The notes under the pieces were generated by a model that saw nothing but the letters and a program-made list of their open reading frames with translations, had not been told where the DNA came from and did not search any database. A stretch of DNA of 29,931 nucleotides, taken from positions 1 to 29,931 of IMG/VR virus record IMGVR_UViG_3300025698_000033; one strand, 5' to 3'. Shown here one piece after another: positions 2,466 to 24,534 of the stretch. A program made the position numbers and the translations under genes. This DNA is from a virus. Within the stretch, counting starts at the first letter, position 1. Every line of letters starts with the position of its first letter.

Positions 2466-2470
2466 AATTA

Positions 2471-4783: not shown

Positions 4784-4794
4784 TTTGTATCTTT

Positions 4795-4802
4795 TATTTA
4801 TA
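4795..4802 (-). promoter_or_regulatory. Candidate late promoter, TATAAATA
   Basis: On the minus strand the octamer TATAAATA lies 11 nt before the ATG of the 770-aa gene, within a 20-nt gap. It is identical to the core of the T4 late promoter. The gap before the start matches that of the 14-mer upstream of the 599-aa gene (11 nt). In such AT-rich DNA a single match is weak evidence. Confidence 0.4.
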
Positions 4803-4803
4803 T

Positions 4804-5343
4804 TTATTTATCGTAGTTATTACTGATATAGAATTTTTGTTTAAGAAAATATTCTTCTCCATCAAATCCATAACTTACATCTGGATCTGAACATATCATA
4901 TATAAAGTATCTACTGGAATGTATATAGAACCATCTATGAATTCTTTAACATTTATTGAACCATCTACTAATTCAGTTCCATTCCAAACTGATCCATCTT
5001 CTACTGTTATATTTCCAGTCCATACTTTTGCAGCTCTTATATCTGCCCAAGTAGATATATCTCCAGGATCATATATTCTTGTCCTATCCTCTATTTCACT
5101 TAAAGCCGTAATGATACTATCTCCCATTATAAATGGTAGAAGTTCATAATCATCAGTCACTGTTATAGTTATTTCATCTCTATCATAAATATCTCCAACT
5201 ACCTTTAATCCTTTTTCGACATTTATAAATTTAGTATTTTCTAATTTATCTGCATCAAAAATTCCAATTGATGGATCTATCAAGGCTAATATTCTTGGAT
5301 GCTGTGATAATTGATCTTCTATGTCTTTTATTATGTTTCCCAT
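4804..5343 (-). CDS. Unrecognised 179-aa tail-region protein
   Basis: The protein begins MGNIIKDIEDQLSQHPRILA. Its start resembles that of the 770-aa gene product (MG followed by a short amphipathic helix). It is acidic and carries the D-x-S motifs typical of this block (DPS, DGS three times, DVS). The middle contains a valine/isoleucine-rich beta segment followed by an alternating stretch (VEDGSVWNGTELVDGSINV) that suggests a small beta-solenoid or beta-hairpin repeat. I do not recognise the family. It sits between the 363-aa tip-like gene (16 nt upstream) and the 770-aa gene, so it is probably a small structural or connector protein of the baseplate periphery. The minus-strand leader reads AAATATAAAACA directly before the ATG. 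Confidence 0.75.
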   Translation of the reverse strand: MGNIIKDIEDQLSQHPRILALIDPSIGIFDADKLENTKFINVEKGLKVVGDIYDRDEITITVTDDYELLPFIMGDSIITALSEIEDRTRIYDPGDISTWADIRAAKVWTGNITVEDGSVWNGTELVDGSINVKEFIDGSIYIPVDTLYMICSDPDVSYGFDGEEYFLKQKFYISNNYDK

Positions 5344-5359
5344 TGTTTTATATTTAACT

Positions 5360-6451
5360 TTAACATGCCGTTTTTCCTGGAGTTCCAGGGAAAACTACGC
5401 TAGATACTGTAACTGAAAATGTTTCGTCATAACTCATACTTCCACCAGAGATAGTTAAAGTCTCATTAAGATAGTGTGGACTATAATTATACCAACCACT
5501 CGAAACAGTTTTAGATTGTGTTGAACCACCTTGTGAGATATTTATAACTGCCGAAGATACTTGTAAAACATACATTTGATAATCTGAAGTAGATTGAGCA
5601 AATATTTTTACATAACAAGTAACTGTAGTTGTTCCAACACTTCTAGTAATCGGAGAATTACTAGTACAATTGGCTGTATTACTAGTAGCAATTATCATTA
5701 CTGCATTTTGATATCCGGAAGGAGCAGTAATATTATTGTAATATCCAGAGATTTTTGGTAATTGTTGTTGGTGAGCAGTGAATTGAGTGTATGCTCCCGC
5801 TTTACTAGTTCCTAAATTCATTTTCCTGGCACCTGTTGCTGCGGCTCCTAGCCATACATCGGTATATACTATTTGATTAGGAGTTGAAAATCCAGCTACA
5901 ACTGGATTAACAGTTAATGCATTTCCAATTTGTGTGCTTCCTGCCACTTTATTAGATGTTCGAGAATGTCCAGATGGTGGAGTTACAGTAGAATATGTTA
6001 AATTTTTAATAGCAGTCCCGGATGCAGCAATTGGATTTGCTCCAGTAATTCTATCCGCTGCAGATTTATACATTCGATGATAAAAGGTATCCGCTTGAAA
6101 AGCATACGACCAAATATTCATTGCCTCGGGTAACGCCACCCCCACCAAATTAGAAATAGATCCAGATCCAATATAATTTTTGGTTCCACTACTTCCATAA
6201 GCAGATGGTACATTAGCCGTGTGATTATATAATCTAAAATCTCCAATTTTCTTATTAGTAGCAGGTGGTGTGACAACTGTATCACTATTTGAATCAACAC
6301 CCAAAGCTCCCGGTGCAAATCTAGCCCACTTATTGATACCACTATAACTGGTTAAGGTTGACCAAGTAATGTTGGAACCTGTAGAAGGTGCTGGAAGTCC
6401 AGCTTGCGCCATTACTGCTGATATGGATATATTTGTAGTTCCTAACGCCAT
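5360..6451 (-). CDS. Probable tail-fibre tip / receptor-binding protein
   Basis: This 363-aa protein begins MALGTTNISISAVMAQAGLP and is rich in Ser, Thr, Gly, Asn and Ala with few charges, typical of beta-rich adhesins. The segment GINKWARFAP near residue 35 resembles an INKWS(K/R)-type segment I know from structural proteins of Bacteroidota phages. It ends in a Gly/Ser/Thr-rich beta domain and a terminal Cys (PGTPGKTAC). Its start codon is 1 nt after the stop of the 1094-aa fibre gene, so the two are probably translationally coupled. A tip or adhesin bound to that fibre is the natural inference. No enzymatic motif is visible. Confidence 0.75.
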   Translation of the reverse strand: MALGTTNISISAVMAQAGLPAPSTGSNITWSTLTSYSGINKWARFAPGALGVDSNSDTVVTPPATNKKIGDFRLYNHTANVPSAYGSSGTKNYIGSGSISNLVGVALPEAMNIWSYAFQADTFYHRMYKSAADRITGANPIAASGTAIKNLTYSTVTPPSGHSRTSNKVAGSTQIGNALTVNPVVAGFSTPNQIVYTDVWLGAAATGARKMNLGTSKAGAYTQFTAHQQQLPKISGYYNNITAPSGYQNAVMIIATSNTANCTSNSPITRSVGTTTVTCYVKIFAQSTSDYQMYVLQVSSAVINISQGGSTQSKTVSSGWYNYSPHYLNETLTISGGSMSYDETFSVTVSSVVFPGTPGKTAC

Positions 6452-6452
6452 T

Positions 6453-9400
6453 TTATTCTTTATTTTTAATTACTTCTTCAAGTTCTTTAACTCTATCAGT
6501 TAATTCTTTAATACCTTCTAATAATAGAGGAACTAAATTCTCATAATTAACTGTTAAATAATCTTCACCTGATATAGATTCTCCTAATTCATCTCTATCA
6601 AATGGGGCAAATCTTATTGCTTCTGGTAAAACACTTTGAACATCTTGCGCGAAAACCCCTATTCTTCTTATATCTTCTTCATCTTCGTTATATTTTGGTG
6701 CTAATTCGTTAGGCGTATATGTCATACCAGTAATTTGAGATATTTTATCTAATGGAGATTCAATAGGTAAGATATCCGTCTTTAATCTTTTATCAGAATA
6801 AAATCCGGTGATTTCCCCAGTAACTGTTGCAGCTCCAGTTACACTTAATGTGCTTCCATTATATTGTAAACCAGAACTTGTTGTTACCGATGATCCACCT
6901 CTTAAAATATGATTAGCTGATAAAGAAGAAACTCCTGTTCCTCCTCTGGCTACGGGTAAAGTCCCTACTGTGATATCAGCAGTATTGATCAATCCAAGCG
7001 CATGTGAATGCGTACCAGTCCCTGCATTATTGCTAGAAGTTGATGTTACGGTAGATGGCGTAGCCATTGAAACAAGACCCGATAAATTTATAGTAGTAAA
7101 ATTCATTCCATTTCCGGAACCAACTGAAGTTACTGTTCCACTTCCTCCACCACCAGCTGGTTGCCAAGTACCATCAGCTCTAAGGAAATTAGTTGTTCCT
7201 CCACCAGATGCAGGAGCTAAACCACCAACAGTTGATGTGAAATCATTTATTGTATGAGTATGACTTGATGCAGAAACAGAATTAGAAGTACTTCCAGTTA
7301 ATGTTCCCGGAGTACCCATAGTAATGGTACCTGTATTTGTTATAGGTCCTCCTGTTAATCCATTTCCTGTCGCTATTGATGTTAATGTCCCAGCATTAGA
7401 TGTCCAACCTTCATCATTAGTAAATTTACTAAGCCCTATGCCTGAAATTACTTGTCTATTTGCGGTGCCCCCATTACTCGCTATTAACCAATCTGTTGCT
7501 AATAATGGATCCCCGAGACTTAATCCTGTTACATCAGTTTGTTTGTTATTAAAGGTATTCCAATTTGCACTTGTAAGATAACCATCAGAACTAGTTGTAG
7601 CTTGATCAATACCTATTGAGCCATCAGATGTAATTATTCCTCCAGTTATAGGAGATAATGTTGATATTGTAGTAATACCTCCACTTCCTCCTCCAGAAGT
7701 AGAAACATCTAATAATCCAGCATTCCATATAAGTCCAGTTCCTATTGAAGATTCTTTAAAATATCCATCAATTTGTATACCGGCTCCTTCCATACTTACA
7801 TTTCCGGAAACATCTAAATCACCAGTAATTATAAGAGATTCATTAATACTTACATTACCGGAAACATCTAAGCCATTATTAATTATAACAGATCCATCAA
7901 TATTAACAGCATTGTTATCATAAACAGTTATTCCTGGTGTTATTCCACCTGTATAAATATTTACTTGTCTGTAATTAGTAGATGAACCAATTTGTAAAGG
8001 TGAACCATATCCTAAAAGAATATTTCCACTTGTATCTCTTATAGCATTTTCGATAGTAATATCCATAGCTTTCATACTGGAATCAACATGGAATGGAAAT
8101 GAAGGATCTGGAGTAAAAACACCAATCCAATCATTTGGCCCATCAAGATTCATATAAATAGATGAATCAATTAATGGATCATCTCCTTCTGCATACATTG
8201 CTAATGAACCAGGTGTTCCATCACCAATATAACTATCAATACTATTTATTTGATTTTGAACATCGGTTAAAGTATTTCCTTGTTGAGTTTGAATACCTGA
8301 AATATCCATGTATTGCTCAGTGATATAATTTATTGTACCGGTATGTTGATTTAATATACTTAACGTTTTTTCTAAATTAGCGAAAACTGATGTCCAGTTA
8401 TAAAGTGCAGTTTGAGATGAGGTAGACTCATCGAAGATAGTCGCTTGAGTATCATCAATCATATTATCAGATTTGATATTAACTCTGAATGAGTATGATG
8501 AACCAAATCCTGTTGCAGTACTTTGTAATTTAGTTAATTGAGGAATAGCGATTTCCATTTCGGGGAATCCTGATGTATTACCAGCGGCAGCATCTAAAAA
8601 TAAAACTCCTAATAAGTTAGTCGCTAATACTTTGTCTAATGTTTTATTATAGACTGTATAATAAATAAGAACAGCATTAAATTGGAATTCATCATCAACA
8701 GAATCTTCGATCGCCATTTTATCCCATGTAAGGGTTGAATCTCCAAATATATTTTTAAGATTGTTTAGATTATATTCAATCCCAACAGCATCCACATTAG
8801 ATCTTTGGAATTCAATTTCATCAGCTCCATTGTCATATTTAATATTGTAATTATATGTACTTGGATCATCTAATATTGCAGATGAATCAGTAGCATACCA
8901 ATTTTCATCAACAAACGATTGTCCCTGACCAGTATACCATGTTCCAGGTTGATAACTAGATCCATCATGGACATCAACAAACATGTCATATGTTCCTGCT
9001 ACAGTACTTGAATTAAGAACATCATAATCCGCTATCATACTTAATCCATCTGGATGAGGTTTAGTATAATTTTCTCTTCCTTTAATGTTTATCCCACCTT
9101 CTCCTAATTTCATTTTCGGGAAGTAGTTATCATCAAAAGTTTGTTTAAAATAAGTCCTTGTTTGGCCGTGTGAAGTTGGAACTAAAACGTATGTCTCGTT
9201 ATATGTTCCAAAAGTATCAGTTCTTACAGAACCGGCGCTAATTTCACCAACATATTTTACAACCGAGTTATAACCAACAGAAGAATCTGTGTCAATTTCC
9301 TCGATAAAATATCCATTATTAGAAACGTCCTTAGTCCAACGAACAGAACCAGTTTCCTTCATCCATTTCCAGAACACTCTTTCAGAAACAGTTCTTAATA

Positions 9401-9737
9401 AAGCAGGATTATAATCATCCTCTGAAAGTAACCAAGTTTCTAAGTTAAGAGCATAATTTTGAAAAGATTCAGCCACAATAACACGACCATCCTTAATACT
9501 TGCAGAATCTTCAAAATTCTCCAATCCACCACTAATAGCAAATGGGTTAAATCTATTTTGCTGTAAATTAGTAGGGGCTGTAATTTCGGGAATATCAAGC
9601 AAAGCAAAATTAGACATCTTAACAATGTTATTTCGCTCATTTATGTTCAGGCCAATATCCTCAACAGCAGAACTAAATGTATATAAAGTTCCACCCTGGG
9701 TTCTCATTCGTTTAACAAAAGGCGTAATTTGTGACAT
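6453..9737 (-). CDS. Tail fibre with C-terminal S74 intramolecular chaperone
   Basis: This 1094-aa protein appears baseplate-attached through a conserved-looking N-terminal half (residues 1-450, starting MSQITPFVKRMRTQGGTLYT). A central part has D-x-S repeats and beta segments. A Gly/Thr/Ser-rich shaft follows, with the DGYLTSANWNTFNNKQ-type repeat and a THSHALG metal-site-like motif common in phage fibres. Residues 978-1094 form a peptidase S74 / intramolecular chaperone auto-processing domain: SDKRLK at 981-986, GVFAQDVQSVLPEAI at about 1027-1041, and a terminal coiled coil. Ser981 and Lys986 have the five-residue spacing of the endosialidase catalytic dyad, so self-cleavage just before Ser981 (codon at 6795-6797) should release the chaperone after trimer folding. 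The start follows an AT-rich leader containing AAATATAAAAAATT. Confidence 0.92.
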   Translation of the reverse strand: MSQITPFVKRMRTQGGTLYTFSSAVEDIGLNINERNNIVKMSNFALLDIPEITAPTNLQQNRFNPFAISGGLENFEDSASIKDGRVIVAESFQNYALNLETWLLSEDDYNPALLRTVSERVFWKWMKETGSVRWTKDVSNNGYFIEEIDTDSSVGYNSVVKYVGEISAGSVRTDTFGTYNETYVLVPTSHGQTRTYFKQTFDDNYFPKMKLGEGGINIKGRENYTKPHPDGLSMIADYDVLNSSTVAGTYDMFVDVHDGSSYQPGTWYTGQGQSFVDENWYATDSSAILDDPSTYNYNIKYDNGADEIEFQRSNVDAVGIEYNLNNLKNIFGDSTLTWDKMAIEDSVDDEFQFNAVLIYYTVYNKTLDKVLATNLLGVLFLDAAAGNTSGFPEMEIAIPQLTKLQSTATGFGSSYSFRVNIKSDNMIDDTQATIFDESTSSQTALYNWTSVFANLEKTLSILNQHTGTINYITEQYMDISGIQTQQGNTLTDVQNQINSIDSYIGDGTPGSLAMYAEGDDPLIDSSIYMNLDGPNDWIGVFTPDPSFPFHVDSSMKAMDITIENAIRDTSGNILLGYGSPLQIGSSTNYRQVNIYTGGITPGITVYDNNAVNIDGSVIINNGLDVSGNVSINESLIITGDLDVSGNVSMEGAGIQIDGYFKESSIGTGLIWNAGLLDVSTSGGGSGGITTISTLSPITGGIITSDGSIGIDQATTSSDGYLTSANWNTFNNKQTDVTGLSLGDPLLATDWLIASNGGTANRQVISGIGLSKFTNDEGWTSNAGTLTSIATGNGLTGGPITNTGTITMGTPGTLTGSTSNSVSASSHTHTINDFTSTVGGLAPASGGGTTNFLRADGTWQPAGGGGSGTVTSVGSGNGMNFTTINLSGLVSMATPSTVTSTSSNNAGTGTHSHALGLINTADITVGTLPVARGGTGVSSLSANHILRGGSSVTTSSGLQYNGSTLSVTGAATVTGEITGFYSDKRLKTDILPIESPLDKISQITGMTYTPNELAPKYNEDEEDIRRIGVFAQDVQSVLPEAIRFAPFDRDELGESISGEDYLTVNYENLVPLLLEGIKELTDRVKELEEVIKNKE

Positions 9738-9780
9738 ATTTTATTATTTCTTTTTTAATTTTTTATATTTATCTATTATA

Positions 9781-9799
9781 CTCGGGAAAGCCCACTGAG
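9781..9799 (-). other. Imperfect hairpin between the 102-aa and 1094-aa genes
   Basis: On the minus strand, CTC and GGG pair with CCC and GAG around a CTTT loop, with an AGT bulge. It lies after the stop of the 102-aa gene and before an AT-rich leader. No U-tract follows, so it is at most a weak terminator or an RNA-processing or stability element. Confidence 0.3.
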
Positions 9800-9811
9800 A
9801 ATCAATTTATT

Positions 9812-10120
9812 TTAATCTAATTGCACTCCATCCACATAAATATCAGGCTCAACTAATTCAGGATATTTTATTCTCATAACTTCTTTTATTGCTAAAAAAT
9901 CTGAAAGATCTTCACTGTTATAAGATTCTCCATCATTAAATGATTGTGTTAATGATTCTTGGAACAATTTAAATAAGTTAAATATATCAACATCATTATA
10001 ATACACATATTTTTCCATTAATAATCCATAATCATTTTCATCCTGAATTTCGGAATCTTTATGTACTTGAATTATATTAAGTACTTTTGTTTCTCTTTCT
10101 TCTAATGTTCCAAAACTCAT
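9812..10120 (-). CDS. Small acidic protein, unrecognised
   Basis: This 102-aa acidic protein begins MSFGTLEERETKVLNIIQVH. It looks alpha-helical, with aromatic-rich helices (YVYYNDVDIFNLFKLFQ) and an Asp/Glu-rich C-terminus. It has no signal peptide or membrane segment. Its ATG overlaps the stop of the beta-propeller gene by 4 nt (ATGA type), which indicates translational coupling. The next gene is the 1094-aa fibre. Small helical acidic proteins placed between fibre genes are often fibre-assembly chaperones. That role is only suggested by position, and I see no family signature. Confidence 0.7.
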   Translation of the reverse strand: MSFGTLEERETKVLNIIQVHKDSEIQDENDYGLLMEKYVYYNDVDIFNLFKLFQESLTQSFNDGESYNSEDLSDFLAIKEVMRIKYPELVEPDIYVDGVQLD

Positions 10121-11265
10121 ATCAAATTATCTTTATTTGGTTTCAATCGGTATCTTCCTACTTCATTGTAATTAGATGGAGTGCTATCGTGTAATGATGC
10201 GATTATATCATCTGTTTCTTCTATAGCTTTAAATGATTGCATATATAAACCGGATGCTAATGTTGTTATTTGATAACTTTCCATAAACAAACCGTCCGAA
10301 GCTCTATATTTTCTAATGTATTCTGTTGCCGTTGAATTTGCAGTACCTACCCTAAGTTGTACCCATACATTTCCGTCATCGGCCATGACACATCCTAAAG
10401 CTCTATTATAATTATCTGCTGCAGAATTTGTAGATAAATCAATTGACCATAATAAATTCATAGCATTAGTTCCATCAAGTTTGATTAATTTATTTGTAAG
10501 CACACCTGCAGTACCATCATATTTAGTAGAATATACAGCATTATCATTATCTATAGCTGGTCTGTTATACCTAGTATTCGCATTACTATTAGTATATGTC
10601 CAATTTGTTGAACCATCTGCATCTAATCTTACAATATAACTTCTACCTGTCACAATTAAATATTCCTCATCTAAATCTAATTCTATATATGAAGAACCAA
10701 GAGTTCCTAGTGAAACTGCCCATTCTTCTCCTCCATCTGAAGCTCTAAGTTTACGTATTGGATATCCTGATGTCGATCCATATCCTTCAAGGGTATAAAT
10801 CATAGTCCCTGATTTATTTATTCTTTCTCTTAATTGATCACCGGTTTTACTTACTTTCCATTGCTGTGCAAACGCTGAATTAGTTTTTCCTGCCTGTCCG
10901 GCTGCATACCCATCACCCCAATAATAATTATCAATAGAACTATCTGCTGTAATAAAAGTAGGATACCCGCCGGAACTTAAAAGACTTTTCCAATTTTCAG
11001 TACCATCCGAAAGTTCTAAAGATAGAAAATCAGCATTAGAAGAATTGCTAGAATAATTAGCTAATAATACTTTATCTTCCACAATACTAAGTCGTGCCGG
11101 CCCATTATCTGCCCATGAAGTTTTATTGGTCCAGATTGAAGCATCATGAATGTCATAAAATTTTGGATAAGGAATATTCCCTGACATTATTATACTTCCC
11201 ATACCTAAAGGATTTATAATTGCATCCCCTGTAGAACCTGGTTTTATATTAAGTTTTCCACTCAT
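10117..11265 (-). CDS. PQQ-like beta-propeller virion protein
   Basis: The 382-aa protein has a short N-terminal strand segment (MSGKLNIKPGSTGDAIINPLG) followed by at least four to five repeats of the PQQ/WD-like propeller blade type. Each pairs a D-G or D-x-G turn with a Trp: DGTENW, DGGEEWAVSLG, DADGSTNWTY, then NLLWSIDLS, and KYRASDGLF near the end. It has no N-terminal signal peptide, unlike periplasmic PQQ enzymes, and no metal-site or quinoprotein residues that I can identify. It lies between two fibre genes and overlaps the 102-aa gene by 4 nt. A propeller used as a structural or carbohydrate/receptor-binding head is the likely role. The fold call is moderately firm; the ligand is unknown. 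Confidence 0.8.
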   Translation of the reverse strand: MSGKLNIKPGSTGDAIINPLGMGSIIMSGNIPYPKFYDIHDASIWTNKTSWADNGPARLSIVEDKVLLANYSSNSSNADFLSLELSDGTENWKSLLSSGGYPTFITADSSIDNYYWGDGYAAGQAGKTNSAFAQQWKVSKTGDQLRERINKSGTMIYTLEGYGSTSGYPIRKLRASDGGEEWAVSLGTLGSSYIELDLDEEYLIVTGRSYIVRLDADGSTNWTYTNSNANTRYNRPAIDNDNAVYSTKYDGTAGVLTNKLIKLDGTNAMNLLWSIDLSTNSAADNYNRALGCVMADDGNVWVQLRVGTANSTATEYIRKYRASDGLFMESYQITTLASGLYMQSFKAIEETDDIIASLHDSTPSNYNEVGRYRLKPNKDNLI

Positions 11266-15784: not shown

Positions 15785-17017
15785 ATGTTCGAGCAAGTAA
15801 AAGATTTTAATTGGGAAATGTATGAAGACGGTTACACAGGAGCTTCTAAATTAACACCCAATATAAAGATATTAGGATCAGACCACAAAAATAAATGCTT
15901 CTCTCGAGAGCCCTACGCCCAAAAGTTATTCGACTTATATTCGGGCCAAGATTCCAAAATAGTTAAAAAAGATTTATCCAAAGGAGATTGTGTATTAGTC
16001 TTAGACATCTTTAATATTAAAGATACTGAAATTGATTTAGAAATAGCTGGCGGATTAACTATATCTATTGACCTTAAGAGGGAGAAGAGATTTGTACAAA
16101 TGTTTGGTTATAATAACGTTGAGGAATTTACCTCACAATTAAATATCAAAGAATATAAAGATAAATTAATCGAAGAGAATCTCATGGCATATGTCATTGA
16201 ATCTAATCCAGTTAAAATATCATTATGGCAGGGTTATTTAATGAGTATCAGGCAGGAATTCATGCAGGAATTAGAAAATCCAACACAGGCATATAAATGT
16301 AAAGTAATATCAGCTAATAAAGGTGGATTCTTTGTAGAAGTTCAAGGTATTGACGCATTTATGCCAGGGTCACTAGCCGCTGCTAATAAGATACAAGATT
16401 TCCAATCTTATGTAGGAAAAGAAGTTATTGTAATGATAGAAGACTATTTAAAGGACATGAAGTCCTTTATAGTGTCCCATAAAAAGTATATCGCCCATAT
16501 ACTTCCGCAAAAACTTAGAGAAATTGATTTAATGGACAAATATACCGGTACTGTAACAGGTGCTTCGAAATATGGTATCTTTATTGAATTTGGATCAGGG
16601 GAAGAATTTATATTTACTGGTTTATTGCACGTTTCTAAAATGACTGAAGAAACCAAGGCTTTATTCAAAGCATGGCATTTTAAGCCAGGTGATCCAATCG
16701 AATTTTATGTAGGAGAGGTTACTAAAGATAATAGAGTTATATTAACTGAAGAAGATCCACAAGAAAAATTGAAGAAAATGCAGCAATTTATTTTTGATTC
16801 TAAGGATAAAATTTTAGAATCTGAAATAGCAGCAGTTATGAAATTTGGTGTAATTGCCAATGTTGGTGATATCACTGGATTGATTCCTCTGAAAGAATTT
16901 AAGAAGCACCGAATATTTTTAAACAACTTTGTAGTCAAGGATAAGTTAAGGGTTATGTTTGACGAATATAAAGATGATAAAGTGGTCTTTCGGTTAGTAG
17001 GTAAAGAAGATATATAA
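15785..17017 (+). CDS. S1-domain RNA-binding protein (ribosomal protein S1-like)
   Basis: This 410-aa protein has three S1-type OB folds in its C-terminal two thirds: residues about 168-235 (YKCKVISANKGGFFVEVQGI, FMPGS), about 251-323 (YTGTVTGASKYGIFIEFGSG, GLLHVSKM, GDPIEFYVGEV) and a degenerate one at about 343-405 (AAVMKFGVIANVGDITGLIP). The N-terminal third includes a VLVLDIF and LTISIDL segment that could be a further worn copy. S1 repeats bind single-stranded RNA, and in bacterial bS1 they recruit mRNA to the 30S subunit. The protein is shorter than bS1 of Proteobacteria (about 550 residues). It is a monocistronic unit ended by a strong terminator. Roles in favouring phage mRNA translation or in RNA handling are inferences. 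The A-rich leader lacks a Shine-Dalgarno sequence. Confidence 0.88.
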   Translation: MFEQVKDFNWEMYEDGYTGASKLTPNIKILGSDHKNKCFSREPYAQKLFDLYSGQDSKIVKKDLSKGDCVLVLDIFNIKDTEIDLEIAGGLTISIDLKREKRFVQMFGYNNVEEFTSQLNIKEYKDKLIEENLMAYVIESNPVKISLWQGYLMSIRQEFMQELENPTQAYKCKVISANKGGFFVEVQGIDAFMPGSLAAANKIQDFQSYVGKEVIVMIEDYLKDMKSFIVSHKKYIAHILPQKLREIDLMDKYTGTVTGASKYGIFIEFGSGEEFIFTGLLHVSKMTEETKALFKAWHFKPGDPIEFYVGEVTKDNRVILTEEDPQEKLKKMQQFIFDSKDKILESEIAAVMKFGVIANVGDITGLIPLKEFKKHRIFLNNFVVKDKLRVMFDEYKDDKVVFRLVGKEDI

Positions 17018-17082: not shown

Positions 17083-18507
17083 ATGAATAAACCAAAACAT
17101 TATAATTTACCAGAAGTTTTTAATAACACGAACATGGGTTATGTGTTTGAGTTTTATTCTTCAAAAGATACAAACTTTATTGTTAAAGAATTAAGTGAGT
17201 TAACTTCCAAAAGCGTAATGCTTACAAATGGGACTTCTCATTCTCCAAGTTTTGCCCGAGCTATTTTAGTAAAAGAATATGAAGGGGATAGACCTCGTTA
17301 TTCTTTTCATATGGGTAGACAAAGATATGATTCAGCAATTCCGTTAATGAAAGAGGTCCTAGGGTGGATCTCAGAGACCTCTGTTTGCACTAGTGATACT
17401 TTGATGAGGGTTAATATGTCTTTTGATCATAGTCATTTAAAGACACTCCAGAGTATCTCCAGTATGAATGTTCAAAAACTTGTTCTTAAAATAGATGAGG
17501 AATTTATTTATGAGAAATTTCCATTACAAGAAGATTCACCTTATTGTATGTCAATAAAAACATTACTCCCAGTAACAGAAGCTGTTTATGTTCCTGATTT
17601 AGTCAAGAATGTAAATTATGTTATTGGAATTCCAAAAAAGAATTTTTATGGAGTTAATTTTAAAGATCAAACCCAAGGAGTTTTAGAGTTTAATTATATT
17701 GGTGGAGATGATTATTCAGAAATGAGTAAAGAAATTTTAGAAGTTCTTCAATATTATGTTATTAAGACTTATCAAAGTCTTAACGAAGTTGAGTTCACAA
17801 AACCTGAATTACTAGAACTTCAAACTATGACCGATGAATTTTACAAAATTCAAGAGGCTTATTATGAACCAGAAAAATTTACTGAATTATTTCCGGAGAT
17901 AAAAGTTGGAATTGATATGAGAAGAGATACTCAAATGATGAAAGCTTATTGGCCAAAAATTAGAAATACTTTATTCCAGAGTGTCATAAATAATAACCTT
18001 AGAGAAGGAGAATTTAATTTAGACACAGAATATGGAGTTTATCAATTAAGAAGAGCTGATATAAACTGCACTAATCTAAAAGGATTTGATTTAGTATTAT
18101 GTAATGTCCAAGGAGTTTTAGAACAATGTAACATGATATCATGTACAATAAATAATGCAAGAATATATAATTCAAAGGTGGTTAAAGGAACTACAATTTC
18201 GGATTCTTATTTACAAAGAATGACTATAGAAAAAGAGAATACGATTAATAATTGTTTTGTTGAGAATAACTGGGAATTATTAAATTGTAATATAAATGAT
18301 AGCATAATAAAATTTGCAGGTATTGGAAAATCAGCAAGAATAGATGAAAGCTCAGTACTTATAGATAGGGAAGAGAAAAACAGAGCTCCGGCAGTTGGTG
18401 TAGAGGTTGAAGAAATGAGAGATTATAAGTGGATTAAAAACCTAACCGGCAAAAAATCAGATGAACACGTATTTGGAAACGAATACATTAAAAAAAGATA
18501 CATATAA
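17083..18507 (+). CDS. 474-aa protein with C-terminal pentapeptide-like beta-helix
   Basis: The N-terminal 300 residues are a mixed domain with MGYVFEFYSSKDTNFIV at 18-34, a conserved-looking NMSFDHSHL at 111-119, CMSIKTLLPV at 155-164 and YGVNF...GVLEFNYIGGDDY at 189-211. That last pairing resembles a phage family sometimes labelled putative amidoligase, but I cannot confirm the fold or the active site. Residues about 320-427 are short repeats with A-D/N-I/L and C-N-x patterns (RRADINCTNLKGFDLVLCNV), consistent with a right-handed, pentapeptide-like beta-helix. There is no signal or membrane segment. The gene is first after a terminator/14-mer pair, and its stop is 1 nt before the SiaC-like start. 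The function is unknown; a fusion of an enzyme-like domain with a beta-helix is unusual. Confidence 0.8.
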   Translation: MNKPKHYNLPEVFNNTNMGYVFEFYSSKDTNFIVKELSELTSKSVMLTNGTSHSPSFARAILVKEYEGDRPRYSFHMGRQRYDSAIPLMKEVLGWISETSVCTSDTLMRVNMSFDHSHLKTLQSISSMNVQKLVLKIDEEFIYEKFPLQEDSPYCMSIKTLLPVTEAVYVPDLVKNVNYVIGIPKKNFYGVNFKDQTQGVLEFNYIGGDDYSEMSKEILEVLQYYVIKTYQSLNEVEFTKPELLELQTMTDEFYKIQEAYYEPEKFTELFPEIKVGIDMRRDTQMMKAYWPKIRNTLFQSVINNNLREGEFNLDTEYGVYQLRRADINCTNLKGFDLVLCNVQGVLEQCNMISCTINNARIYNSKVVKGTTISDSYLQRMTIEKENTINNCFVENNWELLNCNINDSIIKFAGIGKSARIDESSVLIDREEKNRAPAVGVEVEEMRDYKWIKNLTGKKSDEHVFGNEYIKKRYI

Positions 18508-18508
18508 A

Positions 18509-18877
18509 ATGATATTTACAGGAAACCATGAATTACCAAGTCTTGAATTCATTGAAGATGAAGGTAGGTTAAAAATTTGGGGTAGATCAATTGCGACGGA
18601 AGCTAGAGCAGATTTTTGGCAGCCACTAATTGATAAACTAGAAGAATACCTGGAAGATCCTAGAGATATGGCTGTTACTATAGATCTGGATTATTTCGCA
18701 ACATCCTCTGCAAAATCTTTGCTAGTAGTATTTAACCTATTAGCTGATAAAGCAATAATAAAAAATCGTAAAGTCATTATTAAATGGATTTATGAAGATG
18801 AAGATATGAAAGAAGCCGGAGAAGATTATATGTCAATGGTATCTAAATTAGAATGGAAATTTATAGAAAAAGAATAA
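18509..18877 (+). CDS. SiaC-like (DUF1987) regulatory phosphoprotein
   Basis: Starting at the ATG at 18509 gives 122 aa (MIFTGNHELPSLEFIEDEGR). The frame extends upstream to 18461, but that extra part overlaps the previous gene and lacks family similarity. The sequence follows the SiaC/DUF1987 pattern closely: PS-x-x-F near the start, LKIWGRSI, then FWQPLIDKLEEYL, then IDLDYFATSSAKSLLVVF, then IKWIYEDEDMKEAGEDY. In Pseudomonas SiaC the Thr of the (N/A)-T-S-S motif is phosphorylated by the SiaB kinase and dephosphorylated by SiaA, controlling a diguanylate cyclase. That Thr is kept here. No SiaA or SiaB partner is visible in the window. It probably acts in the host cytoplasm as a mimic or decoy, which is inference. 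Confidence 0.85.
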   Translation: MIFTGNHELPSLEFIEDEGRLKIWGRSIATEARADFWQPLIDKLEEYLEDPRDMAVTIDLDYFATSSAKSLLVVFNLLADKAIIKNRKVIIKWIYEDEDMKEAGEDYMSMVSKLEWKFIEKE

Positions 18878-19285: not shown

Positions 19286-20020
19286 ATGACTAAACAAGAA
19301 CTTATAGATGAAGTAAAAGGTGAATTAACTGCCTCTTGTTCTCTTCCTTTTTCACCTCCTGATAAGGAAATTACACGTATAATCGATTTAGAATCTAGAT
19401 GGTTATTCAGAGAATACAGAGATGCTTTGGAAACTCGTTGGTATATCTTAGATAAAAAATGGTATGGCACTCCAGAATGGAAAGCGACTAGAACTTTTCA
19501 ATTACCTGAATGCTGTGTAGGTATTCAAGTTGTTTATGAATTGACTGGTGGCTCAAGAGTATTTGGTATTCATGACCCCGACCTTCAATTTGATAGATTA
19601 ATGGCTGCTGACCTTTATTTGACTCCATTATCTTCAGATCAGATTACATATCGTACTATTCAGTGGTCATTTTGGGATTTATCAAGAGCCTTTAATCTTA
19701 GAGATATTCAAACAAAATTTAACTTAAACACTCACAGAATAGCTATACTTGGTAGAGATCCAGTTGAATCTTTATTTATTACCACAATGAATACTATTCC
19801 ACACGAAGAATTTTATGATGATCCACTTGTTATTAAATGGATGATTGCAAAAGGAAAAATTTCATTAGCAAGAATTTTAGGAACTTTCAGTTATACTCTT
19901 CTTGGAAATGTTACAATTAATTATGCAGATATTAGAGCCGAAGGACAAGAAGAATTAAAGGAGTTAAAAGAAAAGATTGCAAGCGACAATACTCCGGACT
20001 GGTTCCACATGTTCAACTAA
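19286..20020 (+). CDS. Neck protein, T4 gp13-like
   Basis: The 244-aa protein begins MTKQELIDEVKGELTASCSL, a short helical start followed by an EYRDALETRWYILDKKWY helix-rich part, much like the KELKDVILRRLG opening of T4 gp13. The C-terminal segment (IKWMIAKGKISLARILGTFS, then LLGNVTINYADIRAEGQEEL and KELKEKI) matches the gp13 pattern of a helix, a (P/L)GG-type turn with V-T-I, and a Glu-rich helix. gp13 helps form the T4 neck and caps the filled head for tail joining. T4 gp13 is 309 aa, so this version is shorter. The gene is not next to other recognised head genes. The assignment comes from memory of the T4 sequence and needs a profile check. Confidence 0.65.
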   Translation: MTKQELIDEVKGELTASCSLPFSPPDKEITRIIDLESRWLFREYRDALETRWYILDKKWYGTPEWKATRTFQLPECCVGIQVVYELTGGSRVFGIHDPDLQFDRLMAADLYLTPLSSDQITYRTIQWSFWDLSRAFNLRDIQTKFNLNTHRIAILGRDPVESLFITTMNTIPHEEFYDDPLVIKWMIAKGKISLARILGTFSYTLLGNVTINYADIRAEGQEELKELKEKIASDNTPDWFHMFN

Positions 20021-20041: not shown

Positions 20042-22081
20042 GTGAAAGTTGTAAGAAATAAATTATTTGAAGATCCGGATCAATCATTTGCTAAAGGTGG
20101 CCAACCTTTGGATTGGTCAGTAGATTTAGCTCATCCATTTGGCGTTGGATCAAATGGAAAAGTTGAAGTGGGACCACCAAGTACATCTCATGAAGAAGTT
20201 GGAGAAAAATCAGCTTTTGCATTTAATAATTATGAGGGAAGGATATGGCCACTGGCCGGAGTAATTGCCTTTTGGGAAGCTCCAACAAAGGGATATCTTA
20301 TGGAAATTCTTCAGGAACTTATAATGCATGATGAAATATTTGTATATGAATTAGAAATGGAAGATTTTGATGATTTTCTATTTGATATTCCCAATCCTGA
20401 TTTATCTGCTGATGATGAAGACTTAATAGTCACATTAAAAGAATATCCAGCTAATCCGAAATTAAAATTATCTCATTTAAACAGACCGGAACATACAAAA
20501 TCTCCGATGGATCCAACTAAGAAAACTCCTAATCAAAAGGTAACAGATAAAGTTGGTCAGAAAATAGATGATAAAAATACATGGAAGAGAAATCAACCAT
20601 TTGAATCAGTAGTTAGAACATCTTTAACTGAAAGTCCAGATACAATGTGCGCTAATCCACGAATAACAGTTGGCGCATGGGGAGAATATCATGATAGTTG
20701 GCATTGTGCAACCAGGGATGAAAAAGTCGCAGCTTATAATGATGATGACGCTAGAGCTTTTGGAATAATTAATAAAGATGTCCATATGGGTAAAAAATTA
20801 GATAATGGAAGCTTTTGGATGTCAACCCCTGGTGAAACCCATTTAATAAGTGGAAGACATGATTATAAATTTGCAGGACGAATATGGCTAGGCAAAGGTC
20901 TTATCTCATTTTGGGAATACCCAAAACCCGGTGAAATGGCAAAATTTTTAGATAAAATGGCCGAATACATGGAGAATAAACGATCATCTGAGAGTGATTT
21001 TATAAAAGATGAGAATAATAAGAAAATTTTCAACAAACCTATTAGAAACGCGTTGGATGATTTTCTTGTAGAAGTTATTGAAAAGGATGATAAAATTGTT
21101 AATGATACTAAAAATTATGATAAATCTGAAAAAGCTGTTTGGAAAACCAAAGAAGGACAGTGGGACACTTGGGGAAATGATCCTCATATTAGATTTTCTA
21201 CAAAGTATATAAAACTTAAAAATTATGATAATCTTACTAGTGTTAAACAATTAGCACCAGAAGATATGGCTGGAGAACATGGTAAATCTCCTATGGATCC
21301 AACTAAGAAAAAAAGGAATGTTCCTACAGGATTTGGCTCTAAACATCCGGATGCTGAAGCAAAAGCAGAAGAAAGAAGAAACAAACCATTCGAATCCCTT
21401 ATAACAGAAAGTCCTGATAAATTTGAATATGACGGAAAGGAATGGGGCGTTTTTGGATCAGGAGCCCTAGCGTTTGAAGTTGTTATAAATGATAAAACTG
21501 ACGAAATTATCGATGTAAAATTCAATCCTAAAGAAGGATATCATTGTGATTTCTCAGAAACTACTAATGGACATGATAGAATATATCCAGGAAGAATATA
21601 TCCCAAACCAAAAGTAATTACTTTTTGGGCATATCCCAGTTCAGATGAATTTGATAAAATTATTAATCTGATGGAAAAATCTCTTGATCAGGATTTATGG
21701 AATAAGGGATGGAAAGTTGAAGTTTATTTAGGACAAAACAGTAAGCCAATTCATGCAGGAGATAGACGATATGGTAACAACTATGATAGGAAATCTGATT
21801 TTAAAGAATTCATACCAATTGAACAATATATGGGTTCCCATGGGCCTCCAGCAGAAGAAAAACAAAAACATTTAATGTCTTATAAAGAAAAATTAGATCA
21901 TAAAAGATCTACTGGATGGGGCAAAGGGTCCGGTTCTGATAAATATGGTAAGAAAAAACCCTTACCTTATAGACAAGCTATGCAAGCAGAAAGTTTCTAT
22001 CCTGGATTAAATGAAAATCCCAACGCTACAATAGATCCAAAGGTTTGGGCAAAATATAAAAACCCTAACGCTACTCCATAA
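20042..22081 (+). CDS. Modular repeat protein, possible head-internal polyprotein (modules A-C)
   Basis: The start is a GTG at 20042; no ATG fits the N-terminus. The 679 residues hold three modules, each with the core G-R-I-(W/Y)-x4-(V/L)-I-x-F-W-x-x-P (residues 66-81, 279-294 and 517-532). A and B are followed by near-identical linkers (KSPMDPTKK, then RN(Q/K)PFES). The linkers end in LTE|SPD (E197) and ITE|SPD (E456), which fit the (L/I)-x-E specificity of T4-type prohead protease gp21. A third boundary, QAMQAE|SFYPGL (E650), is a looser match. Processing would give fragments of about 197, 259 and 194 residues. T4 packages and injects small head-internal proteins cut at such sites. I know no homologue for the module, so function is inferred. 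The stop at 22079-22081 is in frame with a fourth module. Confidence 0.75.
   Translation: MKVVRNKLFEDPDQSFAKGGQPLDWSVDLAHPFGVGSNGKVEVGPPSTSHEEVGEKSAFAFNNYEGRIWPLAGVIAFWEAPTKGYLMEILQELIMHDEIFVYELEMEDFDDFLFDIPNPDLSADDEDLIVTLKEYPANPKLKLSHLNRPEHTKSPMDPTKKTPNQKVTDKVGQKIDDKNTWKRNQPFESVVRTSLTESPDTMCANPRITVGAWGEYHDSWHCATRDEKVAAYNDDDARAFGIINKDVHMGKKLDNGSFWMSTPGETHLISGRHDYKFAGRIWLGKGLISFWEYPKPGEMAKFLDKMAEYMENKRSSESDFIKDENNKKIFNKPIRNALDDFLVEVIEKDDKIVNDTKNYDKSEKAVWKTKEGQWDTWGNDPHIRFSTKYIKLKNYDNLTSVKQLAPEDMAGEHGKSPMDPTKKKRNVPTGFGSKHPDAEAKAEERRNKPFESLITESPDKFEYDGKEWGVFGSGALAFEVVINDKTDEIIDVKFNPKEGYHCDFSETTNGHDRIYPGRIYPKPKVITFWAYPSSDEFDKIINLMEKSLDQDLWNKGWKVEVYLGQNSKPIHAGDRRYGNNYDRKSDFKEFIPIEQYMGSHGPPAEEKQKHLMSYKEKLDHKRSTGWGKGSGSDKYGKKKPLPYRQAMQAESFYPGLNENPNATIDPKVWAKYKNPNATP
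20237..20284 (+). repeat. Module core A of the repeat protein
   Basis: It encodes G-R-I-W-P-L-A-G-V-I-A-F-W-E-A-P, the first of four copies of the core. Confidence 0.85.
20498..20525 (+). repeat. Linker DNA repeat, copy 1
   Basis: It encodes KSPMDPTKK and is nearly identical (one mismatch) to 21284-21311 over 28 bases. A more diverged third copy lies at about 22538-22562, in front of RKKKRK. It is part of the modular array. Confidence 0.8.
20876..20923 (+). repeat. Module core B
   Basis: It encodes G-R-I-W-L-G-K-G-L-I-S-F-W-E-Y-P, the second core, 213 residues after the first. Confidence 0.85.
21284..21311 (+). repeat. Linker DNA repeat, copy 2
   Basis: It encodes KSPMDPTKK and pairs with 20498-20525. 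High DNA identity in the linker but lower identity in the modules suggests recent exchange or selection on the linker. Confidence 0.8.
21590..21637 (+). repeat. Module core C
   Basis: It encodes G-R-I-Y-P-K-P-K-V-I-T-F-W-A-Y-P, the third core, 238 residues after the second. Confidence 0.85.
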
Positions 22082-22108
22082 TCAATCAAATTTGATGAAC
22101 AAGGAAAT

Positions 22109-22663
22109 GTGACATTTGGATATTATGGAGGGAAGCTATATACAAGGAAAGGAAATTCCACTCATCCTCAACTTTTCCAAATAGCCATGCACGATCCTAA
22201 TAATGAATTAGATGCCAAAGAAGATAAAGAAAGAGGGAAAAATTCTGGAAGGATTTATACTAATTACAAACTTTTAACATTTTGGGTATTTCCCAAAGAC
22301 TATGAGGAACTGGAAAAAGTTATTAAAGATTTAGAAAAGAAACTAAAAATAAATATTTTAAATGATCCGGAATGGAAAATAGAAATTCCTGCCGGAGAAT
22401 TCAAAATGGCATTAGGCAAGGATTCCGGAAGTTGGGGAAGTTGGTACCCAAGAGTTGGCCAAATAGATATGATCCCTATAAAGGATTACAAAGGAGGTCA
22501 TACAAGATCTGAAGAAGATATGGGACAACAACACGCATTTTCTCCTATGGATCCAAGAAAAAAGAAAAGAAAGGTTTGGAAATCAAAAGCTCCTCAAGGA
22601 ATAGACAGGTTAAAAATTAGACAGGCAATGCAGGCTGAGAGTTTTTATCCTAGACTAAAATAA
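22109..22663 (+). CDS. Fourth module of the repeat protein, split off by an in-frame TAA
   Basis: This 184-aa frame starts at a GTG at 22109 with a weak AAGGA five nt upstream. It contains the core G-R-I-Y-T-N-Y-K-L-L-T-F-W-V-F-P at residues 47-62, an IPIKDYKGGH element like IPIEQYMGSH in module C, the FSPMDPRKKKRK linker and the ending IRQAMQAESFYPRLK. That ending closely matches the C-terminal part of the preceding 679-aa protein. The frame is the same as that gene, and the nine codons between TAA (22079-22081) and GTG read as plausible module sequence (SIKFDEQGN). It is therefore either a gene split by a nonsense change, an independently initiated fourth module, or a readthrough product. 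It is annotated as coding because the frame stays open and conserved after the stop. Confidence 0.7.
   Translation: MTFGYYGGKLYTRKGNSTHPQLFQIAMHDPNNELDAKEDKERGKNSGRIYTNYKLLTFWVFPKDYEELEKVIKDLEKKLKINILNDPEWKIEIPAGEFKMALGKDSGSWGSWYPRVGQIDMIPIKDYKGGHTRSEEDMGQQHAFSPMDPRKKKRKVWKSKAPQGIDRLKIRQAMQAESFYPRLK
22247..22294 (+). repeat. Module core D
   Basis: It encodes G-R-I-Y-T-N-Y-K-L-L-T-F-W-V-F-P, the fourth core, within the separate 184-aa frame. Confidence 0.85.
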
Positions 22664-23345: not shown

Positions 23346-23708
23346 ATGATACAAGAGATTTATATACGAAATCCTGAAGATCCTAACTTCAAAGTGAACG
23401 TGTTAGATCACTCAGATCCTATAGAAAGTATTATTTCCAAGATTAAAGTTATTTTTGGCACCCGCCAAGGACAAGTAATGGGTGATCTTAATTTTGGAGC
23501 TGGAATAGAGGATTTAGTATTTGAATCAAGAATAAACAAATTACAATTAGAAGAGGACATCAAGAGACAAATTGATGAATATGTTTCAGAATCTGCAGAA
23601 TATAGAATTAGACCAAGTGTATCATTTGGAAGAGCTGAGGGATATGATTATTGTGTCATTGACATATTCATTGATGATCAAAGAACTTTTGGAATACTTA
23701 TCAAGTGA
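23346..23708 (+). CDS. 25: Baseplate wedge protein, GPW/gp25 family
   Basis: The 120-aa protein is close to T4 gp25 (132 aa). It has the family layout: an N-terminal strand with YIRNPEDPNFKVNV, a helix (DPIESIISKIKVIFGTRQGQ), the conserved turn (GDLNFGAGIEDLVF) and a long helix (INKLQLEEDIKRQIDEYV) before C-terminal strands. gp25 belongs to the baseplate wedge of contractile tails and starts sheath assembly at the wedge core. It is first after a terminator and a 14-mer motif. In T4-like phages gp25 usually lies near gp6; here the homing endonuclease lies between them. Confidence 0.9.
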   Translation: MIQEIYIRNPEDPNFKVNVLDHSDPIESIISKIKVIFGTRQGQVMGDLNFGAGIEDLVFESRINKLQLEEDIKRQIDEYVSESAEYRIRPSVSFGRAEGYDYCVIDIFIDDQRTFGILIK

Positions 23709-23709
23709 G

Positions 23710-23723
23710 ATATATAAAATAAA
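23710..23723 (+). promoter_or_regulatory. Candidate promoter carried by the homing endonuclease (14-mer copy 4)
   Basis: An exact ATATATAAAATAAA with a preceding G starts right after the gp25 stop and ends 1 nt before the endonuclease ATG. The closeness to the ATG makes either a leaderless transcript or a translation-enhancer role possible. Confidence 0.5.
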
Positions 23724-23724
23724 A

Positions 23725-24534
23725 ATGAATTATATTTACATTACAACTAATTTAAAAAATGGTAAACAATATATAGGTTCACATAAAGGAACTCAAGATG
23801 ATAATTATTTAGGAAGTGGAAAATTATTGTTATATTCTGTTAAAAAATATGGTAAAGAGAAATTTAAAAGAGAAATATTAGAAGAATGTAAGGTGGAAGA
23901 TAATTTAATATTAGAAACTAAATATATTAAAGAATATAATACTCTTACACCAAATGGCTATAATATTTTAGAAAATGGAGGTCATATTATTTGGACAAAT
24001 GAATTAAGAAAGAAAATAAGTGATAAACAAAAAGGGAAAACTCTTTCTACAGATCATAAAAAAAATATAGGTAATTCATTAAAAGGAAAAAAACGAGATC
24101 CTAAAATTGGAAAAAAAATAAGAGAAACACGAATAAAAAACGATTCGTATAAAGTAAAAGATTCAACTAAGGAAAAAATAAGAATTGCAAATTTAGGAGA
24201 AAAAAATCCTAATTGGGGAAAGATTAGATCTAAAGAAACAAAAGAAAAGATAAGACAATCTAATTTAGGTAAAAAAAGATCTGAAGAAGTTAAAAAAAAT
24301 ATGAGTATTGGACAAATTGGAAAAAAATTATCAAAAGAGCATATTAAACAATTACAAAAAAATGGTAAAAAAAATAAAGGGATAAAACATTCAGAAAAAT
24401 CTAAAGATAATATGAGTAAAGCACATATTGGCATAAAACAAAAAAGAATAGTTTGTAAATATTGTAAAAAGGATATAGCAGTTAATATATATACAAGATT
24501 TCATGGAGAAAAATGTAAAAATAAACTAATTTAA
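23725..24534 (+). CDS. GIY-YIG homing endonuclease (free-standing)
   Basis: The 269-aa protein starts at the ATG at 23725. An upstream extension to 23572 would overlap gp25 and is not family-like. Residues 1-90 form the GIY-YIG nuclease: Y-I-Y at 3-5, Y-I-G at 16-18, the SHKGTQDDNYLGSGKLL stretch, and a probable catalytic Glu at about 64 (ILETKYI) followed by N-G-Y-N. Residues 94-238 carry about four to five NUMOD3-like DNA-binding motifs (S-x-x-T/H-K-x-x-I-x-x-x-x-x-G-K). The C-terminus has a C-x2-C-x12-H-x3-C zinc-finger-like site (C244, C247, H260, C264). Base use is even more A-rich than in its neighbours, with many AAA Lys codons. It lies between gp25 and gp6, as expected for a mobile intergenic gene that cuts sites in these conserved genes. 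Confidence 0.92.
   Translation: MNYIYITTNLKNGKQYIGSHKGTQDDNYLGSGKLLLYSVKKYGKEKFKREILEECKVEDNLILETKYIKEYNTLTPNGYNILENGGHIIWTNELRKKISDKQKGKTLSTDHKKNIGNSLKGKKRDPKIGKKIRETRIKNDSYKVKDSTKEKIRIANLGEKNPNWGKIRSKETKEKIRQSNLGKKRSEEVKKNMSIGQIGKKLSKEHIKQLQKNGKKNKGIKHSEKSKDNMSKAHIGIKQKRIVCKYCKKDIAVNIYTRFHGEKCKNKLI

Follow-up and report, generated by a model that had tools for sequence, protein, structure and literature searches.

The internal proteins IPI-III and Alt of phage T4 are cut by the prohead protease gp21 and have diverse bodies behind a common short leader that ends in L/I-x-E (PMC3012670, PMC7411985, PMC12373910). The T4 prohead protease gp21 cuts after L/I-X-E (PMC9026906), and the T4 capsid targeting sequence (CTS) is about 10-20 residues long (PMC7411985). 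Each of the proteins Ip1-3 inhibits one GmrSD variant (PMC12373910). The inner-body or ejection paralogues of phiKZ and SPN3US form families of variable number, with cleavage after x-x-E by a protease resembling S77, and the N-termini of two SPN3US paralogues are identical (PMC5694885). Polyvalent proteins of phages and conjugative elements join many domains, lysozyme and 2H domains included, in one virion-borne polypeptide; their authors liken them to polyproteins and propose release via an embedded peptidase (PMC5512222).

The DNA analyzed here (the window) is a linear virus record of 29,931 bases, whose baseplate protein is about 44% identical to that of Lak megaphages across 98-99% of its length. 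Its plus strand contains an array of four related modules between two conserved genes, one encoding a head-tail adaptor-like protein (19286..20020; phrog_211, E 2e-5) and the other a baseplate wedge (gp25-like) protein (23346..23708; weak PHROG match, E 0.0026). An earlier note had read the array as one protein, but it comprises two open reading frames (ORFs) in the same frame, both with a GTG start: array ORF 1 (20042..22081, 679 aa) encodes modules 1-3 and the first 24 residues of module 4 and ends at a TAA, and array ORF 2 (22109..22663, 184 aa) encodes most of module 4. The four G-R-I-(W/Y)...F-W-x-x-P cores that the note had recognized are present at codons 66, 279, 517 and 736 (20237, 20876, 21590 and 22247). 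Pairwise identity among the four modules is 27-36%, and the joints are indeed more alike than the module bodies (RNQPFES/RNKPFES, SPMDPTKK twice plus SPMDPRKK, and QAMQAESFYP twice). These joint motifs are conserved, but not all of them occur at each joint, as SYKEKL replaces SPMDPTKK in module 3. At the DNA level, SPMDP(T/R)KK corresponds to a 37-nt direct repeat on the plus strand with a reference copy at 20489..20525 and further copies at 21275..21311 (89% identical to the reference) and 22529..22565 (70%).

The most telling joint element had escaped the earlier note: L/I-x-E directly before (S/N/D)-P-(D/N). In the window, the predicted cut sites, all on the plus strand, are LFE|D (20063..20071, codons 8-10), which closes a 10-residue leader, LTE|S (20624..20632, codons 195-197), ITE|S (21401..21409, codons 454-456) and LNE|N (22007..22015, codons 656-658). 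Measured from joint to joint with their trailing linkers, module 1 (SPMDPTKK ... RNQPFES) spans 20072..20632 (187 codons), module 2 (SPMDPTKK ... RNKPFES) 20633..21409 (259 codons) and module 3 (RQAMQAESFYP) 21410..22015 (202 codons); module 4, as an interrupted frame, spans 22016..22660 (216 codons). Module 3 is about two thirds identical to module 4 of contig L003, and the closest relative of module 4 is module 3 of contig G002 (46%).

The start of module 4 (LNE|NPN, codon 656, nt 22007) precedes the in-frame TAA (22079..22081). This stop is also present in contig L002, which is the same DNA as the window; contig L006 begins downstream of it. The matching module of the syntenic relative G002 is open, reading TPSYTIEYDEEGNI where the window reads TP, stop, SIKFDEQGNV. 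Module 4 is thus split off in the window; re-initiation at the GTG at 22109 would be possible, and a module made in this way would be leaderless and may therefore be decaying. Lak relatives recode TAG. Recoding of the window TAA is unlikely and was dropped as an explanation, because TAA is the usual stop of window ORFs (18 of 21; TGA 3, TAG 0). Reading TGA as tryptophan opens the broken array frames in L063 and in the L031 group; this recoding is inapplicable to the window. In all, six phage contigs (L063, L031, L037, L051, L056 and L068) have arrays that are open only under this reading, and the S77 protease genes of two TGA=W contigs (G028, G029) also contain two internal TGA codons.

That the repeats exceed chance is borne out by a profile of eight modules, which recovers this domain from dozens of further phage contigs. 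The core DNA pattern occurs in 84 stretches of the viral collection, two of which are copies of the window's own DNA and were excluded; all 82 examined contain the module family (82/82, with the profile iterated on the hits), and the first pass with the eight-module seed profile missed no ORF bearing the core pattern. Bacterial genomes yielded eight stretches with one real member, on a Bacteroidales MAG contig (L096, 193 bits), the other seven scoring below 15 bits or being unscored. In the standard code, 88 ORFs carry the domain, 25 of them in two to five copies; under TGA=W, six modules are present in the L063 frame and five in that of L031. Among the matches listed, tblastn with four members as queries found the module in 0 of 50,697 phage records, the best 20 of 29 matches of one query covering only a C-terminal WYL_2-like part, and a profile search found none in six described megaphages. 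The family is broad, including stand-alone genes as well as fusions with other domains: lysozyme (L011), cytidylyltransferase-like (L017, L047), 2'-5' RNA ligase-like (L018) and WYL_2 SH3 (L003). In L011, a 1659-residue frame (4916-9892) comprises one module, copies of a second repeat behind similar joints and a C-terminal phage lysozyme. The modules belong to an unnamed phage protein family, and both the family and its tandem form look new.

The statement in the earlier note that the modules match no described family agrees with searches of 88 modules in Pfam, PHROG, NCBIfam and PDB. These gave nothing convincing: one weak Pfam match (TEX19), three single PHROG matches, one NCBIfam match and, from PADLOC, four weak memberships, with 0 matches among PDB sequences. 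The PF12699 domain of phiKZ/SPN3US inner-body proteins is found in 0/88 modules, and no embedded peptidase of the kind proposed for polyvalent proteins was detected, with 0 Pfam families in the window's array ORFs. Fold modeling, which the note had suggested, was done for window module 4 (pLDDT 79.6, pTM 0.69) and the L022 core (pLDDT 85.1, pTM 0.81), and neither model matches a known fold: the best Foldseek E-values against PDB are 0.64 and 0.87, the best BFVD value is 0.24 (window module 4 model only), and the best VIA-align Z-scores are 3.2 (gelsolin-like) and 2.7. The absence of a fold assignment for these models does not show that the fold is new.

Among 92 distinct module starts, 86 have E-x-P within the scanned stretch; three of the remaining six have E-x-P too close to the ORF start and three are without it (two in L050, one in L045). 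At the 86 scored joints, position P3 is L in 57, I in 20, M in 6, and K, V or F in one each (L or I in 77/86), and P1' is S in 47, N in 28, T in 6, D in 4 and H in one. To avoid the circularity of scoring joints with a profile that contains them, the joint columns were removed and the profile was rebuilt. With this joint-stripped profile, applied to 12 arrays chosen by the analyst, 41 of 44 modules have [LI]xE[SAGTND] in the 40 residues upstream. The density of this motif, whose next-residue set S/A/G/T/N/D was picked after the joints had been inspected, is 45 sites in 1,760 pre-module residues versus 6 in 6,749 residues of module bodies. The window has four occurrences, one ahead of each module. 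Without a next-residue rule, L/I-x-E is found there nine times, including five within modules 1-3, a total similar to the shuffled mean of 7.4. The joint is separate from the module, as it also precedes other domain types: two unrelated stretches in G020 (LHE|S, LFE|A), a GGAYGHM domain in L063 (LQE|G) and the second repeat of L011, where eight copies of [LIMV]xE precede S/A/T-F, one per repeat copy. Just 9 of the 14 [LIMV]xE[SAGT] matches in L011 are at joints, and P3 is V or M in three.

Module bodies contain [LI]xE 122 times versus 178 by shuffling (z -5.1); the count in 58 diverged modules is 85 versus 114.5 expected, and 64 of 89 modules have fewer matches than expected for that module. 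No depletion of [LI]xK, [LI]xQ, [VF]xE or [LI]xD is found in module bodies, while [LI]xD[SAGN] is mildly depleted too (24 versus 38). [LI]xE is in excess in the G001 and G004 proteomes and in baseplate proteins (95 versus 65.8). This avoidance is not calibrated, as mature capsid proteins, which are presumed substrates, show no depletion (40 versus 36.2).

First modules and stand-alone members begin with a leader that runs from the initial Met to the Glu of the motif. Forty distinct leaders, a few of them from frames truncated by contig ends, are 5-38 residues long (median 11) and have L or I at P3 in 37 cases; the Met-to-Glu rule gives no leader for eight members, including the window with its GTG start. 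The family thus possesses a leader of roughly 10-20 residues ending in L/I-x-E, as T4 internal proteins do. In G004, a leader of the type L(K/R)xLLxE occurs six times at N-termini and at 0 of 48,749 other positions, and is borne by four kinds of protein: the module gene product, three paralogues with a YKNPKS stretch and two other proteins. The pattern is less clean in G001 (four N-terminal occurrences versus three elsewhere) and has no occurrence in the scanned proteins of G012. The rate of the motif per 1000 residues at residues 5-25 versus the rest is clearly raised in G004 (7.3 versus 2.8) and weakly so in G001 (4.0 versus 2.8) and G012 (3.8 versus 2.9). At the G014 locus, leaders ending in VxE are found on two ankyrin proteins, an AAA_5 ATPase and a lysozyme. 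The leader genes of G014 and G004 have no match in phage records.

Peptidase_S77 is above the cut-off in 9 of 20 contigs. An alignment search found it in 6 of 14 further contigs and gave no match in 11 contigs of the first set that were searched again, bringing the total to 15/34 contigs and to 9/13 of those longer than 90 kb, with fewer lineages than contigs because the S77 set includes near-copies (G004/G010, G028/G029). The 19 of 34 contigs in which S77 was not found are fragments. Neither S77 nor the gp23-type capsid protein was found in G003, G006, G008 and G009 (125-235 kb), and the 30-kb window contains neither gene. All six described megaphages have S77, three of them above the cut-off. 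The gp23-type capsid protein is found in 10 of 20 contigs, and thirteen such proteins have [LIM]xE ahead of the presumed mature part, where the final match within residues 1-110 was used as the site; in the closest large relative, G002, this site reads HALNE|A. An aligned [LIV]xE|[SA] follows at the end of the catalytic domain in 8/8 S77 proteins. The gene ahead of the LR745206 capsid gene (L164:3-1163) contains tandem YLAE|N / YIAE|N repeats, as would be expected of a multiply cut scaffold.

At one syntenic locus the copy number of the module varies from 1 to 6. Between the adaptor and gp25 genes there are two modules in G023 and G024, three in G002, three plus one in the window and six in the near-identical pair G020/G025; G014 has a one-module gene (212 aa) ahead of gp25, and nothing in this stretch matches the adaptor. 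The neighboring genes of the window and G002 are 56-77% identical, versus 33% for their first and 46% for their last modules. In a tree of the modules, in which the L063_m4 entry is a fragment of module 3 produced by a false joint, window module 3 groups with module 4 of L003 (support 100/96), a contig whose gene context differs, window module 4 pairs with G002 module 3 (100/99), and window modules 1 and 2 pair with each other (96/89), module 1 being on a long branch. The array is therefore a mosaic. The L003 and L007 arrays adjoin nucleotide-metabolism genes rather than virion genes; visual inspection of the translations suggests that these neighbors resemble ribonucleotide reductase and IMPDH/GMP reductase. 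In L007, the ribonucleotide reductase-like and IMPDH-like genes (2278-5937 and 8634-10897) seem, by eye, to be interrupted by intein/homing-endonuclease-like insertions. Other genes near the window array encode a protein with three S1 RNA-binding stretches (15785-17017; PF00575), which is also a conserved neighbor of the array locus in relatives, a SiaC-family regulatory phosphoprotein inside the phage structural region (18461-18877; PF09345, E 6.8e-24) and a GIY-YIG/NUMOD3 homing endonuclease (23572-24534) that overlaps the end of the gp25-like gene and has relatives in L003.

The earlier note had proposed a processed head-internal polyprotein. The single ORF has to be given up, whereas a processed head-internal polyprotein is well supported, by inference, by the gp21-type joints, the leaders, the presence of S77 and gp23-type proteins in relatives and the turnover of modules. 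Judging from these sequence features, the locus probably encodes head cargo made as a precursor and then processed. By analogy with the T4 capsid targeting sequence, the short N-terminal leader would take the array into the prohead, where the S77 protease would cut after the Glu of L/I-x-E at the leader and at every joint. Cutting would free separate modules of 190-260 residues with flexible basic tails, a feature suggested by the joint residues and by low-confidence tails of the models. The modules may then remain with the DNA and be ejected into the host, where their most likely role, and the least certain step, would be to block a variable target such as a defense system. Copy number and the tree show that the array gains, loses and exchanges modules between phages.

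The conserved position of the array, flanked by the head-tail adaptor gene and the baseplate wedge gene (window, G002, G020/G025, G023 and G024), would also suit a multidomain structural component of the neck or baseplate that stays uncut, with modules as beads and L-x-E-S-P-D as a structural N-cap. This is unlikely, however, because the L003 and L007 arrays are distant from such genes, G014 has a single-module gene at the same locus, an identical L/I-x-E stands ahead of unrelated domains, and 1 to 6 copies would be odd for a structural part. The modules could otherwise be non-virion proteins produced in the cell during infection, such as host-takeover or DNA-bound proteins, with uncut arrays that arose by duplication; the metabolic gene context in L003 and L007 and the WYL_2 SH3 domain fused in L003 point this way. 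Leaders that end in L/I-x-E, the head-gene neighborhood in G004 and joints identical to the sites of the capsid protein and protease make this quite improbable. There is also a very slim chance that a cargo polyprotein is cut by a different protease, either of the host or acting after injection: S77 is missing from 19/34 contigs and modules of several relatives also end in A-x-x-E-S, unlike L/I-x-E, but the joint motif agrees with the S77-type sites of the same phages.

If the locus does encode processed head cargo, the T4 internal proteins appear, by analogy, to be its nearest mechanism. Relatives of the array encode a gp21-type protease and a gp23-type capsid protein as T4 does, and no recognizable sequence similarity to T4 internal proteins was found, these being themselves diverse. 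Unlike in T4, the array has several modules in one frame, each joint carries a site, and the leader or joint serves other domains too; this tandem form looks new. The phiKZ/SPN3US paralogues differ in their site, S/A-x-E, and in being encoded by separate genes rather than a tandem frame (PMC5694885). Whereas release of polyvalent proteins is proposed to rely on an embedded peptidase, the array joints fit a prohead protease acting in trans, and such joints are not among the features described in the cited part of that work (PMC5512222). A literature search, mainly of freely accessible papers, found no tandem head-cargo polyprotein with prohead protease joints. T4 Ip1-3 are the best precedent for function; an anti-defense role for the modules is rated lower than head cargo, at somewhat under even chances. 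More tentatively, the prohead protease of Lak/T4-related giant phages might be a general splitter of cargo polyproteins: with a common leader and L/I-x-E joints, any domain (lysozyme, ankyrin, 2H phosphoesterase, nucleotidyltransferase or the module described here, among others) could be plugged in, packed, freed and injected, and the modules would be a diversifying set of inhibitors, exchanged among phages, that target variable host defenses.

If processing occurs as proposed, giant phages would load many effectors together via polyproteins that the capsid protease cuts apart. A sequence rule based on joint and leader would then allow head cargo to be listed in uncultured phages, which otherwise offer no view of their injected proteins, and the modules, as a new family with no assigned fold, could be tried against host defenses.
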